Source of the DNA: Membranipora membranacea
Taxonomy: Eukaryota > Bryozoa > Gymnolaemata > Cheilostomatida > Membraniporidae
Assembly: GCA_914767715.1 (NCBI GenBank)
Contig: OU612074.1
Location: 14,928,062-14,992,061 of the forward strand
Direction of reading: 5' to 3'
Length of the DNA: 64,000 nt
Shown in pieces: positions 12,071-22,432 of this stretch. A program made the position numbers and the translations under genes. Under the pieces are notes generated by a model. The model had not been told where the DNA came from. It searched no databases and saw nothing but the letters and a program-made list of their open reading frames with translations. The first letter of the stretch is position 1, and each line of letters opens with the position of its first letter.

Positions 12071-15000
12071 TTATCTTGAATTCATATAGTTATAGTTGAG
12101 CGCATCAGGGTCACTGAAGGCACTGTGAAGATATTCAAAAGTATATCTTTCCTTAGGGTCCTTGTTCCAACATTGCAGCATAACTTCATACAGAGCTTGT
12201 GAGACATTTTCTGGCTTCGGATGTCGGTACCCTTTTGCCACCTCCTTTAAAACCTGCTGGTTTGATTGTCCTAAACAGACATCATAGCAAGTCAGATGAT
12301 GCTTCAAAGAAATGAGCTGATGGTATAAAAAAACCTTTTTGACAGAAAGTTTATGACTAAGATTGCGCGATTGAGTTGATGCTTTGTGGGAGTGACTATT
12401 TCAGTGTACGCCAGCTGCATGTACACTGAAGAAACACAATATACTAATTGTTCCTAATTAATGCTTTATTTTAAATAATAATTGGCAGTTCAAATAGGAA
12501 ATATGCACTCTTTTAGAAAATTTTACTAATGTATGCTTGAAATCGTTTGTTTTCTATCTAGTCAGATAAACTCACTAAGGACAACAGACTGCAATCATAT
12601 TAATATAGATAGAATTATATGACACAATTGATCGATATTATCGAATAATGGTATTTAGATATGACATCATCAGATAATACAAACCTGGATAAGGCATTTG
12701 ACCATGAGTCCAAATTTCCACCAGAAGAATCCCATATGACCAAACATCAGATTTAATAGTGAACCTGGTTTCAGTAATAGCATCTGGTGCCGTCCATTTG
12801 ATCGCACAACTTGTTTTACCTGGAATATGTGTAGAAGTTATAAAGATTCTGATGAAGATAAATTGGTATCGTATTCAAAACATCCCTTGTATAAATCAGC
12901 AATGAAAGAAAATCACTCTCTATTGTGATCAAGACAGAGCTGCTTTTTAAGTGAGTGGATATTGGTGGGATGAATTTGTCAATAAAGGACAAGGTTTTGC
13001 ATTGTGAATTAAAATAGTATACAGAGGTAATTAATGTATAACTAGCCCGCATATTTGTGTCTTTCTAATGTACTTAATTCACCTTTTGTAACTTTAAAAC
13101 AAGATTTGTTTGAAACTTCAAAAGTTTACCTTTCGGGACAAAATATTCATCATATGGCACAGCGCGTTGGAAATCACAAAGCTTTGCAGTATTGTTTTCC
13201 CCAACCAGCACTGCCCTTGATGACAAATCTCTGTGTATGTAATTGTGACTTTCCAAATATTCCATTGCTCCTGCTACCTGTAATATGTATATGTGTTATT
13301 TTAGCAAAATCATTGCTTCGATTTGTTCATGTAAGATCAATTGAATTATCTATATAACGAGTCAAGACTCTATAGTTCTGTCAGCTGAGCAGAAGAGGCA
13401 GAGGTGTATCCTCAAGTCCTATGAATTGAACTTAAAGGGCAATTTGAAACAGTTCAGGCGTCCCTTGTACTTGCCATCTTTTCTTTTTCATTGTCAACAG
13501 CAGATATTTAGCTTAACACACCTGAGCAGCAATTTCATGTCGCTGGGAGGTATTCAGCTGGGTGTCTCGTAGATGATCAGTCAGAATTCTTGAATTAAAG
13601 CCCGGCAATTCCATTATCAGGTAGAAATACTCTGCAGTGAAACACACTGCATGCAGCTACAAATGGTTAAAATTTGATGTAATAATAAATTTTCAAATGA
13701 CGAAAAGAGTTCAGTATATTTTTAGATAGATTAGACGGCTTTTGATAACCACCATGCCTCTTCAGTACAACATTTAACACATATAACAACACTATCAGGG
13801 TGTGAATATCCTAGCATCGGAAAGGAAATATTTGTTTGTTCTTGTCTTACAACAATATTAATCATTCCTGGGTATAAAGTAATAAATAATTGAGCAGGAA
13901 AAGTTATGGCTCGACAATATGTTCATATCAAATACTTTAATCCAACCTATTTTCAAAATCAATTTTTTTCACTGCTCACCTGAAGAATGTTTGCATGCGT
14001 AAGCTCTCTGAGCACTGCTGCCTCAGACTCTATATGTTTCTTGAGCTCGGCAGCTTTTGTTAATTTTATCATTACATCGAAGCTGTTATGCAAGACACCT
14101 GTCAATTGTATATTATGGCATTTCAGAATTCTACGCCAAGCTTAGTCAGCTTAGTCAATGATTGATCCTCAGAAACTCTGGAAACTTTTATCAGTTATCA
14201 GCAGAAACTGGTAAAATTTCTGTTAGTTTATTACTTTCAGCTCAAACTCAGACAGAAGGGAAAATTTAGTTTGAATAAGCTCAAGCTCAAAATGCACATG
14301 TTTTCCTTTGCTTAGCATATCCTTGCTATTTCAGATATCCCTACACTTGTAACTTGCCACCTACACTTGTAACTTGCCAATCGAACACATCTAAGGACAT
14401 AAATAATTAAGTTTCATTTTAAAGAGAAACTTTTACATACCTTTGCAATATTGAATCCCCAAAGAACTTCTAATTTGATCATTCAATGAGAATTCCTCTC
14501 TGAATATTTGTCGTCCGTCCGATCGCTGTTCAGGCACTTCTAAAACAGCATTAGATAAGGATTTGTAAGGTTGACTGAGCTTGGTGCAGGGACCAGTATT
14601 CGACGTAGCTGTAAAACGATGTAAAAAGATTAATGGCCCACTAAGCTATTTTATTAGAACATAATTTAGTGACAAAATCGACAGTTCCTACTTATAAACT
14701 CAAAAGTAATAGTAATAAAATTTCGGATCTTCTACCTGTTTGTCTTTGACTTGATTAATTACAGTGTGCCGATAAACTTTCATGATCTCTCTCTAAGTTC
14801 ACCAAAATTAATTACATCTATTTTTCAGAAAACAGTCACACTTCTATATTGAATTACCAAATACGCTGACACAAAACTAGCTTTGAATACTGTAGATCCA
14901 GAAAGCAATCAAAAACTTGAACTTTAATATGAAACTAGGTTTCTTAAATGCATAAAAACACCAGCAAATTTGGAGTTGGTCTCGGAAAACAGACAAGTAA

Positions 15001-21000: not shown

Positions 21001-22432
21001 CTAAGTTCCGCCCTTTTATAGTAAGCGGCTTATAATTACACGCTGCATATGCCGTTATCTTTATTATTCATCTCAGTTGGGGTGTTAAGTGTTGATATTC
21101 CATAACGATTAGAAATCATTGTTTGATCATTGATTTAGAAATTACTTCATTGTTTATATATTATTCATCTCTGCCAACGAGCAAAATCTGAGTTTTTAGC
21201 TTACATTCAAAAATCCCCTGAGTAGCCTGAACCCAAAAATCTGAGTAACTCGGGCTAAACCTGAGTGGTTGAGAGCCCTGTTGAAAACAATGGGGAGTAA
21301 ACTGTTCTCATGCTGGAGCCATACTAATAGATGGTAAATACATTAATATTTGAGTGTTGGCTATGTGTTGTCAGTCCAGAAAAGTTATTTCTGCAACCGC
21401 CAATGGCAACCTCTACAGAAGGTTGCTGGCTAAACCTTGCCGACTGGGAGGATTGATTGATGAATTAAAAAATTTAATTAAGTAAGAGCCCTTACAAAAG
21501 TACCACTGAGTGTACCATGGAGAGGCCTACCTGATATATGAGCAGATTTGCTTCCCTTATGTGATTCATTTCTCAGATATTCTGTCAGACGGCAAACTGG
21601 GAAGTCTCCTGAATATTCTGCTCTGCATTCAGGACATACAAACTTGTCACCTAACCTCTGTTTTATCTCACCTACAGTTATGGGTGATAGTATCAACAAA
21701 TTATACCATACTAAGTCAGACTTGACACAGCAATCTGAAAATTTCTTTAATTTCTTTGACCTTTGGAATTGGATTGCTAAGCTCATAACTTATTTGAAAA
21801 AGGGCTTTAATGAAATTTGATAGCTCAATAGGTTGAACTCACCTAGACTGAAAAACTGGTTTCAAGATTCAAAATTGGTTCAAGGGTAAGTCTGCGACTC
21901 TTTTTTTTTTAAAGCTATGCAAATGGTGCCGCGGGAGTCAAGGGTTCTAGTCCCATCGGGGACCTTTCAAGCATCCAACAACCTTGAGCGAATACATCTG
22001 TATCAGATCCTTGTTTGGAGGGATACTATGAGTTGGTTTTGTACAATTGCTTTGAAATGCAAAAATTCATGTAGCTGCTGGGTGTGATACATAATGGCTA
22101 ATCAAATTTCAAACAATATAATGTACTATCAGTAGGCTATGCCTACTTGGAAATGTAACTGCATATTAACTTTTACATAGATAAGGCCAAAGTAAGGTCG
22201 ATAAATTTACACATTAGGCTGCACTAGCATAGAGGCTCTAGAATACAGCACAGTGTTATGATAAATAAAAAATGATGAATAATTTCTCTGCAGGAATAAG
22301 TTAAGCAGACTTACCAACACAAGCCTGACATATGTGATGCTGACAAGGTGGGAGTGTTAGAGGAACAGTGTTGTAGCATATAGGACACTCTAGAATACTC
22401 TCTAATGCTGCTACAGTGAGGTTCGCAGCCAT
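12071..22432 (-). CDS. TRIM-tyrosine (pseudo)kinase chimera: RING, B-box, coiled coil, PTK domain
   Basis: Thirteen exons join in continuous phase (1932 nt, 643 aa): 22315-22432, 21531-21671, 19860-19971, 19375-19579, 17263-17461, 16747-16913, 16250-16334, 14441-14608, 13980-14098, 13522-13656, 13130-13277, 12685-12819, 12071-12270. Residues 16-55 form a complete C3HC4 RING ([17 protein letters not shown]). Residues 96-134 form a B-box ([16 protein letters not shown]). About 150-314 is predicted coiled coil. From about 382 to the end is a Src/Abl-like tyrosine kinase domain: VMIK (K410), alpha-C E424, HRDLSSRA (D500), CDFQ (518-520), [44 protein letters not shown]. The glycine loop is unrecognisable, the HRD-loop Asn is Ala and DFG is DFQ, so catalysis is doubtful. 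No SH2, SH3, signal peptide or membrane helix is visible. The RING should act as an E3 ligase, with the coiled coil giving oligomers (inference). Two adjacent genes is the alternative, but phase continuity argues against it. Confidence 0.85.
18622..19045 (+). mobile_element. LINE C-terminal fragment with AAAC-repeat tail, in TRIM-kinase intron
   Basis: An open frame on + (to 18915) reads [20 protein letters not shown] then [14 protein letters not shown], like the extreme C-terminus of Jockey/CR1-type RT proteins. A 3' UTR-like stretch then ends in an AAAC repeat at 19026-19041. It lies antisense within the intron between exons 4 and 5 of the TRIM-kinase gene. Confidence 0.5.
20300..20361. repeat. 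two identical 21-base palindromes
   Basis: AAGTGGAGCT-G-AGCTCCACTT occurs at 20300-20320 and again at 20341-20361, separated by 20 bases. Each copy can form a 10-bp hairpin with a one-base centre. They sit in the intron between exons 2 and 3 of the TRIM-kinase gene. Confidence 0.9.
20480..20890 (+). mobile_element. LINE RT thumb fragment in TRIM-kinase intron
   Basis: Plus-strand translation gives [39 protein letters not shown] and then, after a frameshift, [19 protein letters not shown]. This is the layout of the RT thumb and following segment of CR1/Rex-like LINEs. Both ends are truncated. Confidence 0.55.

Follow-up and report, generated by a model that had tools for sequence, protein, structure and literature searches.

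A 64,000-nucleotide stretch of the genome of the bryozoan Membranipora membranacea (GenBank assembly GCA_914767715.1, contig OU612074.1, positions 14,928,062 to 14,992,061 of the forward strand; here called the window, with its first letter as position 1) carries on its minus strand, from 22432 to 12071, thirteen exons that encode a RING domain, a putative zinc finger, a helical region and a tyrosine kinase fold of Src type. An original prediction took these exons for a germline fusion of a TRIM protein with a tyrosine kinase, built like the oncogenic TRIM27-RET. We rebuilt the gene from the window sequence. All 12 introns are GT-AG, the phases fit at every junction, and the resulting single open frame encodes 615 amino acids plus stop, with neither a frameshift nor an internal stop codon. 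The predicted exon chain was thus recovered, its junctions 16747/16334 and 16250/14608 exactly as claimed; its length, which had been put at 644 codons including the stop, is corrected to 616. A stop codon lies in frame upstream of the start ATG, the introns within the gene measure 0.24–1.9 kb, and the window contains zero N, with base composition alike across 12–22 kb.

The front of the protein opens with the RING (C16-C55), split between exon 1 (22315..22432, start codon 22432-22430, residues 1-39, donor GTAAGT), which holds its first half, and exon 2 (21531..21671, residues 40-86), which holds the second half with C52, C55 and R56, the last at what we take to be the linchpin place. When the first 78 residues are isolated, Pfam model PF13445 finds this domain above its cutoff (E 7.1e-7, 29.6 bits); in the whole-protein search the same model scores 24.8 bits, just under its 25.2 cutoff, and the RING models stay below their cutoffs. 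The nearest RINGs in PDB, with the first 336 residues as query, are those of TRIM25 (E 8.3e-5) and TRIM21 (E 1.1e-3), then BRCA1 (E 1.5e-3), and the RING of the original prediction stands. About 40 residues past it comes a second Cys/His cluster, shared between exon 3 (19860..19971; C96, C99, C114, C117, C122) and exon 4 (19375..19495; C125, C131, H138). Its spacing, C-x2-C-x14-C-x2-C-x4-C-x2-C-x5-C-x6-H, is B-box-like, and C96-H138 is a plausible zinc finger. The B-box had been drawn as C96-H134, a limit that does not hold, residue 134 being Glu and the His being H138. Exon 4 also begins the helical region, which fills exon 5 (17263..17461, residues 165-230); helix propensity is elevated over residues 143-230. 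Exon 5 ends in a phase-1 donor, GTTAGT after TAT, the weakest of the 12. Exons 6 (16747..16913) and 7 (16250..16334) encode a linker. The former has coding-like codon usage, an alternative acceptor that would move its start to 16898, and its first in-frame ATG at 16890.

Exons 8 to 13 encode the kinase half: exon 8 (14441..14608) a remnant of an SH2 C-terminus, a Src-type linker and a degenerate glycine loop; exon 9 (13980..14098) strand beta3 with the motif VMIK (K382) and helix alphaC with E396; exon 10 (13522..13656) L411, M425 at the gatekeeper place and the hinge; exon 11 (13130..13277) the motifs HRDLSSRA and DFQ and the activation segment; exon 12 (12685..12819) the motif WTAPD and part of the C-lobe; and exon 13 (12071..12270) the end of the C-lobe, the Src-like tail tyrosine Y609 and the stop TAA. 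The predicted Src/Abl-like kinase domain is confirmed by PF07714 (E 3.5e-65, residues 375-600) in the whole-protein Pfam search, where only kinase models exceed their cutoffs and no known class of TRIM C-terminal domain does. The best PDB match is the Src-Abl ancestor, and Src-family kinases make up most of the best 60 of 2346 matches. A protein search with residues 345-615 returned 193 proteins at E <=1e-3, of which 120 were listed; all homologue counts that follow refer to these 120. Kinase identity to them has a median of 42% and reaches 45% at best. By our own count, SH2 appears in the precomputed Pfam lists of 116; P0035 and P0037, both without SH2, are tandem-kinase proteins by our reading. 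Relatives include a Yrk-like protein of Watersipora (P0034), mollusc SRK2/3 and Src64B. Y609 aligns with a Tyr in the tails of 106 of the 120. By all these comparisons the kinase domain is Src-derived.

The C-terminus also reads YNYMNSR (12074-12094, minus strand), in which a YxxM and a YxN motif overlap where Src has its regulatory tail tyrosine. YNYMN would presumably suit SH2 binding of the p85 or Grb2 type; Y609 could no longer clamp in cis, because the SH2 domain is gone.

Exon 8 bears on how the gene arose. Alignment shows that the SH2 domain of Src-family proteins ends in a sequence resembling ADGLCxxLSxPC. A GLCxxL motif is found in 104 of the listed homologues and absent from 16. Compared with the SH2 end and linker of 40 of these 104, the opening 22 residues of exon 8 give z 3.5 relative to shuffles (1 of 300 equal), and the opening 30 residues z 3.3 (2 of 300). 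The SH2-tail Cys lies 60 residues from the beta3 Lys, a distance of 59-61 in 99 of the 104 motif-bearing homologues (4, 41 and 54 proteins, respectively); among the 41 with a spacing of exactly 60, G320, C322 and L325 are identical at invariant columns. Taking the human SRC exon lengths to be as we assume them (sum 537 codons), the corresponding exon begins at a phase-1 intron at most one codon from the start of exon 8, and the introns coincide in place and phase at four of five kinase-domain sites. Because of the SH2-tail score, the Cys-Lys spacing and the shared invariant residues, exon 8 is most likely the homologue of the Src exon that runs from the SH2 tail through the linker into the first part of the kinase domain. 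Only the C-terminal strand of SH2 is left; SH3 and the body of SH2 are gone, and six Src-like queries located neither SH2 nor SH3 exons in the window (best E outside the kinase exons 0.47). The kinase half therefore looks like a Src-type gene cut in its SH2 tail, with RING exons in place of the SH3-SH2 front, which favours exon shuffling.

A hidden SH2 domain in exons 6 and 7 was considered separately, since IYAT..MVKK there is suggestive of FYIT..LV by eye. It was dropped, because 37 of 300 shuffles equalled the score of exons 6-8 against SH2 and Pfam gave no SH2 row.

Like the SH2 remnant, the catalytic degeneration of the kinase is absent from the original prediction. Conservation was judged against the 120 listed homologues. 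Three glycine-loop Gly residues present in all of them are here R361, S363 and I366, and the Val of the same loop, also present in all, is replaced by Y368. M380 stands in for the VAIK Ala (119 of 120), and the catalytic-loop Asn, the DFG Gly and the APE Glu, each found in 120 of 120, have become A477, Q492 and D517. The column of the activation-loop Tyr, again without exception in the homologues, holds F501, with Y500 adjoining. Kept are K382, E396, D472 and D490. The regulatory spine retains L411, H470 and F491, and has L400 at a position occupied by Met in 118 of 120. By sequence, the Src-type domain is a pseudokinase: its catalytic motifs are lost and its fold-supporting spine residues retained. 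Loss of ATP handling with preservation of the core would be the pattern expected of a pseudokinase that binds proteins; weak kinase activity may persist, because K382, E396, D472 and D490 remain. Given this degeneration, the phrase ‘kinase-fold modules’, also used in the original prediction, is the better description.

Whether the two halves are one gene depends on the join between exons 5 and 8. Both exons are in phase 1, and therefore join in frame with or without exons 6 and 7, which together form a symmetric phase-1 cassette of 252 nt. The codon score of exon 6 (log-likelihood ratio 6.9) is equalled by none of 263 overlapping open windows from introns. A search combining splice and codon scores, with exons 5 and 8 as fixed anchors and an arbitrary penalty of 6 bits per added exon, found its best path through exons 6 and 7 (36.3, with the exon 6 acceptor shifted by 15 nt); the exact model scored 36.05 and the direct join of exon 5 to exon 8 scored 31.5. 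An upstream coding exon is moreover needed for exon 8, because it begins inside an SH2 strand. We consider it likely, on these grounds, that exons 1-13 are one gene.

Our preferred reading goes further: exons 1-13 are one gene and its product is a functional TRIM-like E3-pseudokinase. We hold it with a confidence somewhat above even. Such a gene would have arisen by exon shuffling in an animal lineage, when a TRIM-like E3 front (exons 1-5, with RING, zinc finger and helical region) and a two-exon linker (exons 6-7) came to be spliced to the Src-type exons 8-13, the Src-type gene having been cut at the intron in its SH2 tail. The pseudokinase would then hold the position occupied in TRIM proteins by SPRY, NHL or MATH domains. 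Substrate choice in TRIM proteins is usually made by the C-terminal domain. The pseudokinase could thus act as a receptor for substrates or partners, perhaps proteins that are clients of the parental Src kinases or regulate them; what it binds would be presented to the RING and ubiquitylated. Because its catalytic machinery is broken, the kinase shape probably serves to grip proteins, not to phosphorylate them. M380 and Y368, both bulky and in the ATP pocket, may keep the fold closed without nucleotide. Met at position 2 of the VAIK motif is one of two changes tied to the inactivity of titin kinase, a binder of the TRIM ligase MuRF1, in the portion of Bogomolovas et al. (PMC4042850) that was covered, and a Phe filling the ATP pocket, according to the part consulted of PMC12721161, blocks ATP binding yet stabilises the active conformation of PKC and Akt.

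Several observations weigh against this reading. At the join, exon 7 lacks a coding signal (24% of 1341 null windows do as well), the coding score of exon 8 is negative (-4.0), with other exons likewise weak, and no donor among the 12 is weaker than those of exons 5 and 6, which rank at the 82nd and 88th percentile among 572 GT sites. Reading through the exon 5 donor meets an in-frame TAG at 17258-17260 and, 170 nt on, an AATAAA at 17088; neither AATAAA nor ATTAAA occurs within the ~670 nt scanned past the stop of our model. The anchoring of the splice-plus-codon search at exons 5 and 8 leaves a two-gene model outside it. In the front, neither B-box model scores significantly on the zinc finger C96-H138 (E 7.3 for PF00643, 0.13 for the ANCHR-like B-box); its top Pfam row is FYVE_2 (PF02318), which at E 0.0033 and 18.0 bits stays below its own cutoff of 27.2. 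The predicted coiled coil could not be substantiated by two simple tests, both negative or marginal: the heptad score was matched by 825 of 1000 shuffles, and the amphipathic moment, in the best of four helical segments tried, by 140 of 2000. We call the front TRIM-like, not TRIM, because neither B-box nor coiled coil is significant; the RING-B-box chain of TRIM21 (5olm) aligns over residues 4-130 with a score not above those of RING-only chains. In the kinase half, the intron after Q410 is presumably the one of five kinase introns that differs from human SRC. Finally, no RING-kinase relative was found among the searched proteins, hence there is no conservation to show selection.

A serious though minority contender is a pair of neighbouring genes on the same strand: a protein of 231 residues with RING, zinc finger and helices, ending at the TAG at 17258-17260, followed by a truncated Src-like pseudokinase that starts at ATG 16890 in exon 6 or in an unseen upstream exon. 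It would account for the TAG just beyond the exon 5 donor with its downstream AATAAA, for the two poor donors and for the poor coding signal of exons 7 and 8. The TAG, however, is made by the donor letters themselves (GT-TAG), as in any GTTAG donor in this phase, and only ~370 nt separate it from ATG 16890, little room for a 3′ end and a promoter when set against introns of 0.24–1.9 kb. Two genes would also leave exon 8, which starts inside the SH2 tail, in need of a coding exon upstream, and would make the phase-1 match of exons 5 and 8 a coincidence, one expected about one time in three by chance.

Less probable, and in our view doubtful, is a chimera without function that has so far stayed intact, or a decaying gene, the catalytic losses then reflecting relaxed selection. 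Catalytic motifs are indeed lost at several places, the splice sites at the join and the B-box are weak, and the searches found no relatives; against this stand 615 codons free of frameshifts and stops, every splice dinucleotide intact, and the selective nature of the losses, which strike ATP-binding and catalytic positions while the checked spine positions are kept. An identity of ~42% to homologues means, besides, that this is not a fresh copy. An active tyrosine kinase that a TRIM part switches on by oligomerisation, as a germline counterpart of TRIM27-RET, is very unlikely: the order of parts is that of the TRIM-RET fusions and K382, E396, D472 and D490 are kept, but the glycine loop, catalytic Asn, DFG Gly and VAIK Ala are lost, the activation-loop Tyr column holds F501 with its Tyr one residue before, and no driving coiled coil is demonstrable, so that the function proposed in the original prediction is not supported. 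Equally improbable is an assembly misjoin at exons 7/8 or 5/6, the locus being known from one assembly only but lying in a window free of N, with similar base composition over 12–22 kb and phases that fit at the join.

We return to the preferred reading, a single gene for a TRIM-like E3-pseudokinase. A more specific version, which we put forward only tentatively, is that the protein represents a new class among TRIM-like ligases: a Src pseudokinase, derived by exon replacement of the SH3-SH2 front, would be its substrate receptor and direct it to the clients or regulators of Src, or to Src kinases themselves. If true, the kinase family's own fold would have been turned into a ligase against its clients, regulators or kinases. 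Pseudokinases are known to cooperate with ubiquitin ligases, the two being distinct proteins. If the exons are one gene, the joining of pseudokinase and ligase in a single chain would be a natural experiment in using a kinase fold as the targeting domain of a ligase, a parallel to engineered degraders with borrowed binding domains. The SH2 remnant, for its part, is an unusually clear trace of a modular signalling gene swapping front ends at an intron.

The window holds further features away from this gene. On the plus strand, open stretches at 39950-40783 and 57455-58222 encode G protein-coupled receptors of the rhodopsin type (PF00001, E 3.4e-11 and 9.5e-13); they resemble each other by eye and are perhaps part of a tandem receptor family. 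LINE-like fragments of reverse transcriptase (PF00078) lie at 52291-52758 on the plus strand (E 1.5e-13) and at 1893-2330 on the minus strand (E 0.0025, under the Pfam cutoff). The minus strand also has, at 29521-29937, an open stretch with weak similarity to Exportin-4 (5dlq_B, E 0.0014, residues 48-105), which probably belongs as an exon to a gene next door, also on the minus strand, and, at 55724-56188, an open frame consisting largely of MDQWINGS-like units, with no Pfam match and likely a tandem repeat. Just upstream of the gene, at 22877-22933 on the minus strand, is a tRNA-like stretch, TATAGCTCAGTGGTATGGCC...GGGTTTGACTCCC, whose box motifs look to us like those of a tRNA-derived short interspersed nuclear element; neither ARAGORN nor Rfam reported anything there, and in the window as a whole no tRNA or other non-coding RNA was found by ARAGORN or at Rfam gathering scores. 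In intron 2, at about 20300-20361 (minus strand), the near-palindrome AAGTGGAGCTCAGCTCCACTT occurs twice, ~41 bases apart.

Relatives with the same architecture were sought in several ways. Because the RING of this protein narrowly misses its Pfam cutoff, Pfam lists could hide RINGs in relatives, and we therefore scanned the proteins for the RING spacing pattern itself; the query matches it, and none of 153 proteins among the matches listed does (the 120 of 193 kinase-region matches and 33 from another search). For the gene itself, the order RING, zinc finger, helical region and Src-type kinase fold in one open frame is supported. With residues 1-375 the protein search gave 3947 candidates, none at E 0.01, a weak negative, the index needing shared words of five residues. 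IMG/VR gave nine pattern matches, none confirmed as a relative, in a scan that may omit the window's own genome. Paralogous TRIM or kinase genes were sought in the window by tblastn, which gave nothing better than E 1.7 outside the exons of the model. In the part of the literature covered, titles and the beginnings of abstracts contained no germline TRIM-kinase gene. As for family surveys, the portions consulted of Marin (2012; PMC3503706) name no TRIM kinase class and have ‘kinase’ in the reference list only, that word is absent from what was covered of Sardiello (2008; PMC2533329), and the accessible text of a paper on the holozoan tyrosine kinome (PMC8662651) has none of ring, trim, zinc finger, ubiquitin or pseudokinase as a whole word. 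The absence of relatives and precedent is provisional, because the literature was partial and the protein index is word-based.

Among known systems, the TRIM/RBCC ligases resemble this protein in beginning with a C3HC4 RING, followed after ~40 residues by another Cys/His cluster, then by a helical stretch and a protein-fold domain at the C-terminus; they differ in that here neither B-box nor coiled coil reaches significance and the C-terminal domain is a kinase fold. Src-family kinases share the kinase domain, the SH2 tail and linker at the same spacing, and the tail tyrosine, whereas our gene lacks SH3 and the SH2 body and has lost the catalytic motifs. Titin kinase stands outside the tyrosine kinase group, and Tribbles is derived from a Ser/Thr kinase. 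Titin kinase is nonetheless also a pseudokinase, with Met at VAIK position 2, and is coupled to a TRIM ligase, MuRF1 (TRIM63), according to the part of the source covered (PMC4042850), although there the two are separate proteins and the DFG change is D to E. Tribbles, which pairs with COP1, is a pseudokinase platform for substrates ubiquitylated by context-specific E3 ligases (PMC5382568); it too works as one of two proteins, and the protein proposed here would be a one-chain analogue of either pair. The oncogenic TRIM24/27/33-RET fusions likewise place a TRIM N-terminal part ahead of a tyrosine kinase fold and, in the text covered (PMC7230609), act by oligomerising an active kinase; they are somatic and involve an active receptor kinase, whereas the gene here lies in an assembled genome, is of Src type and is catalytically degenerate. 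Each part of the Membranipora protein is known singly, and the combination of RING, zinc finger and pseudokinase would, provisionally and if the exons are one gene, be new.

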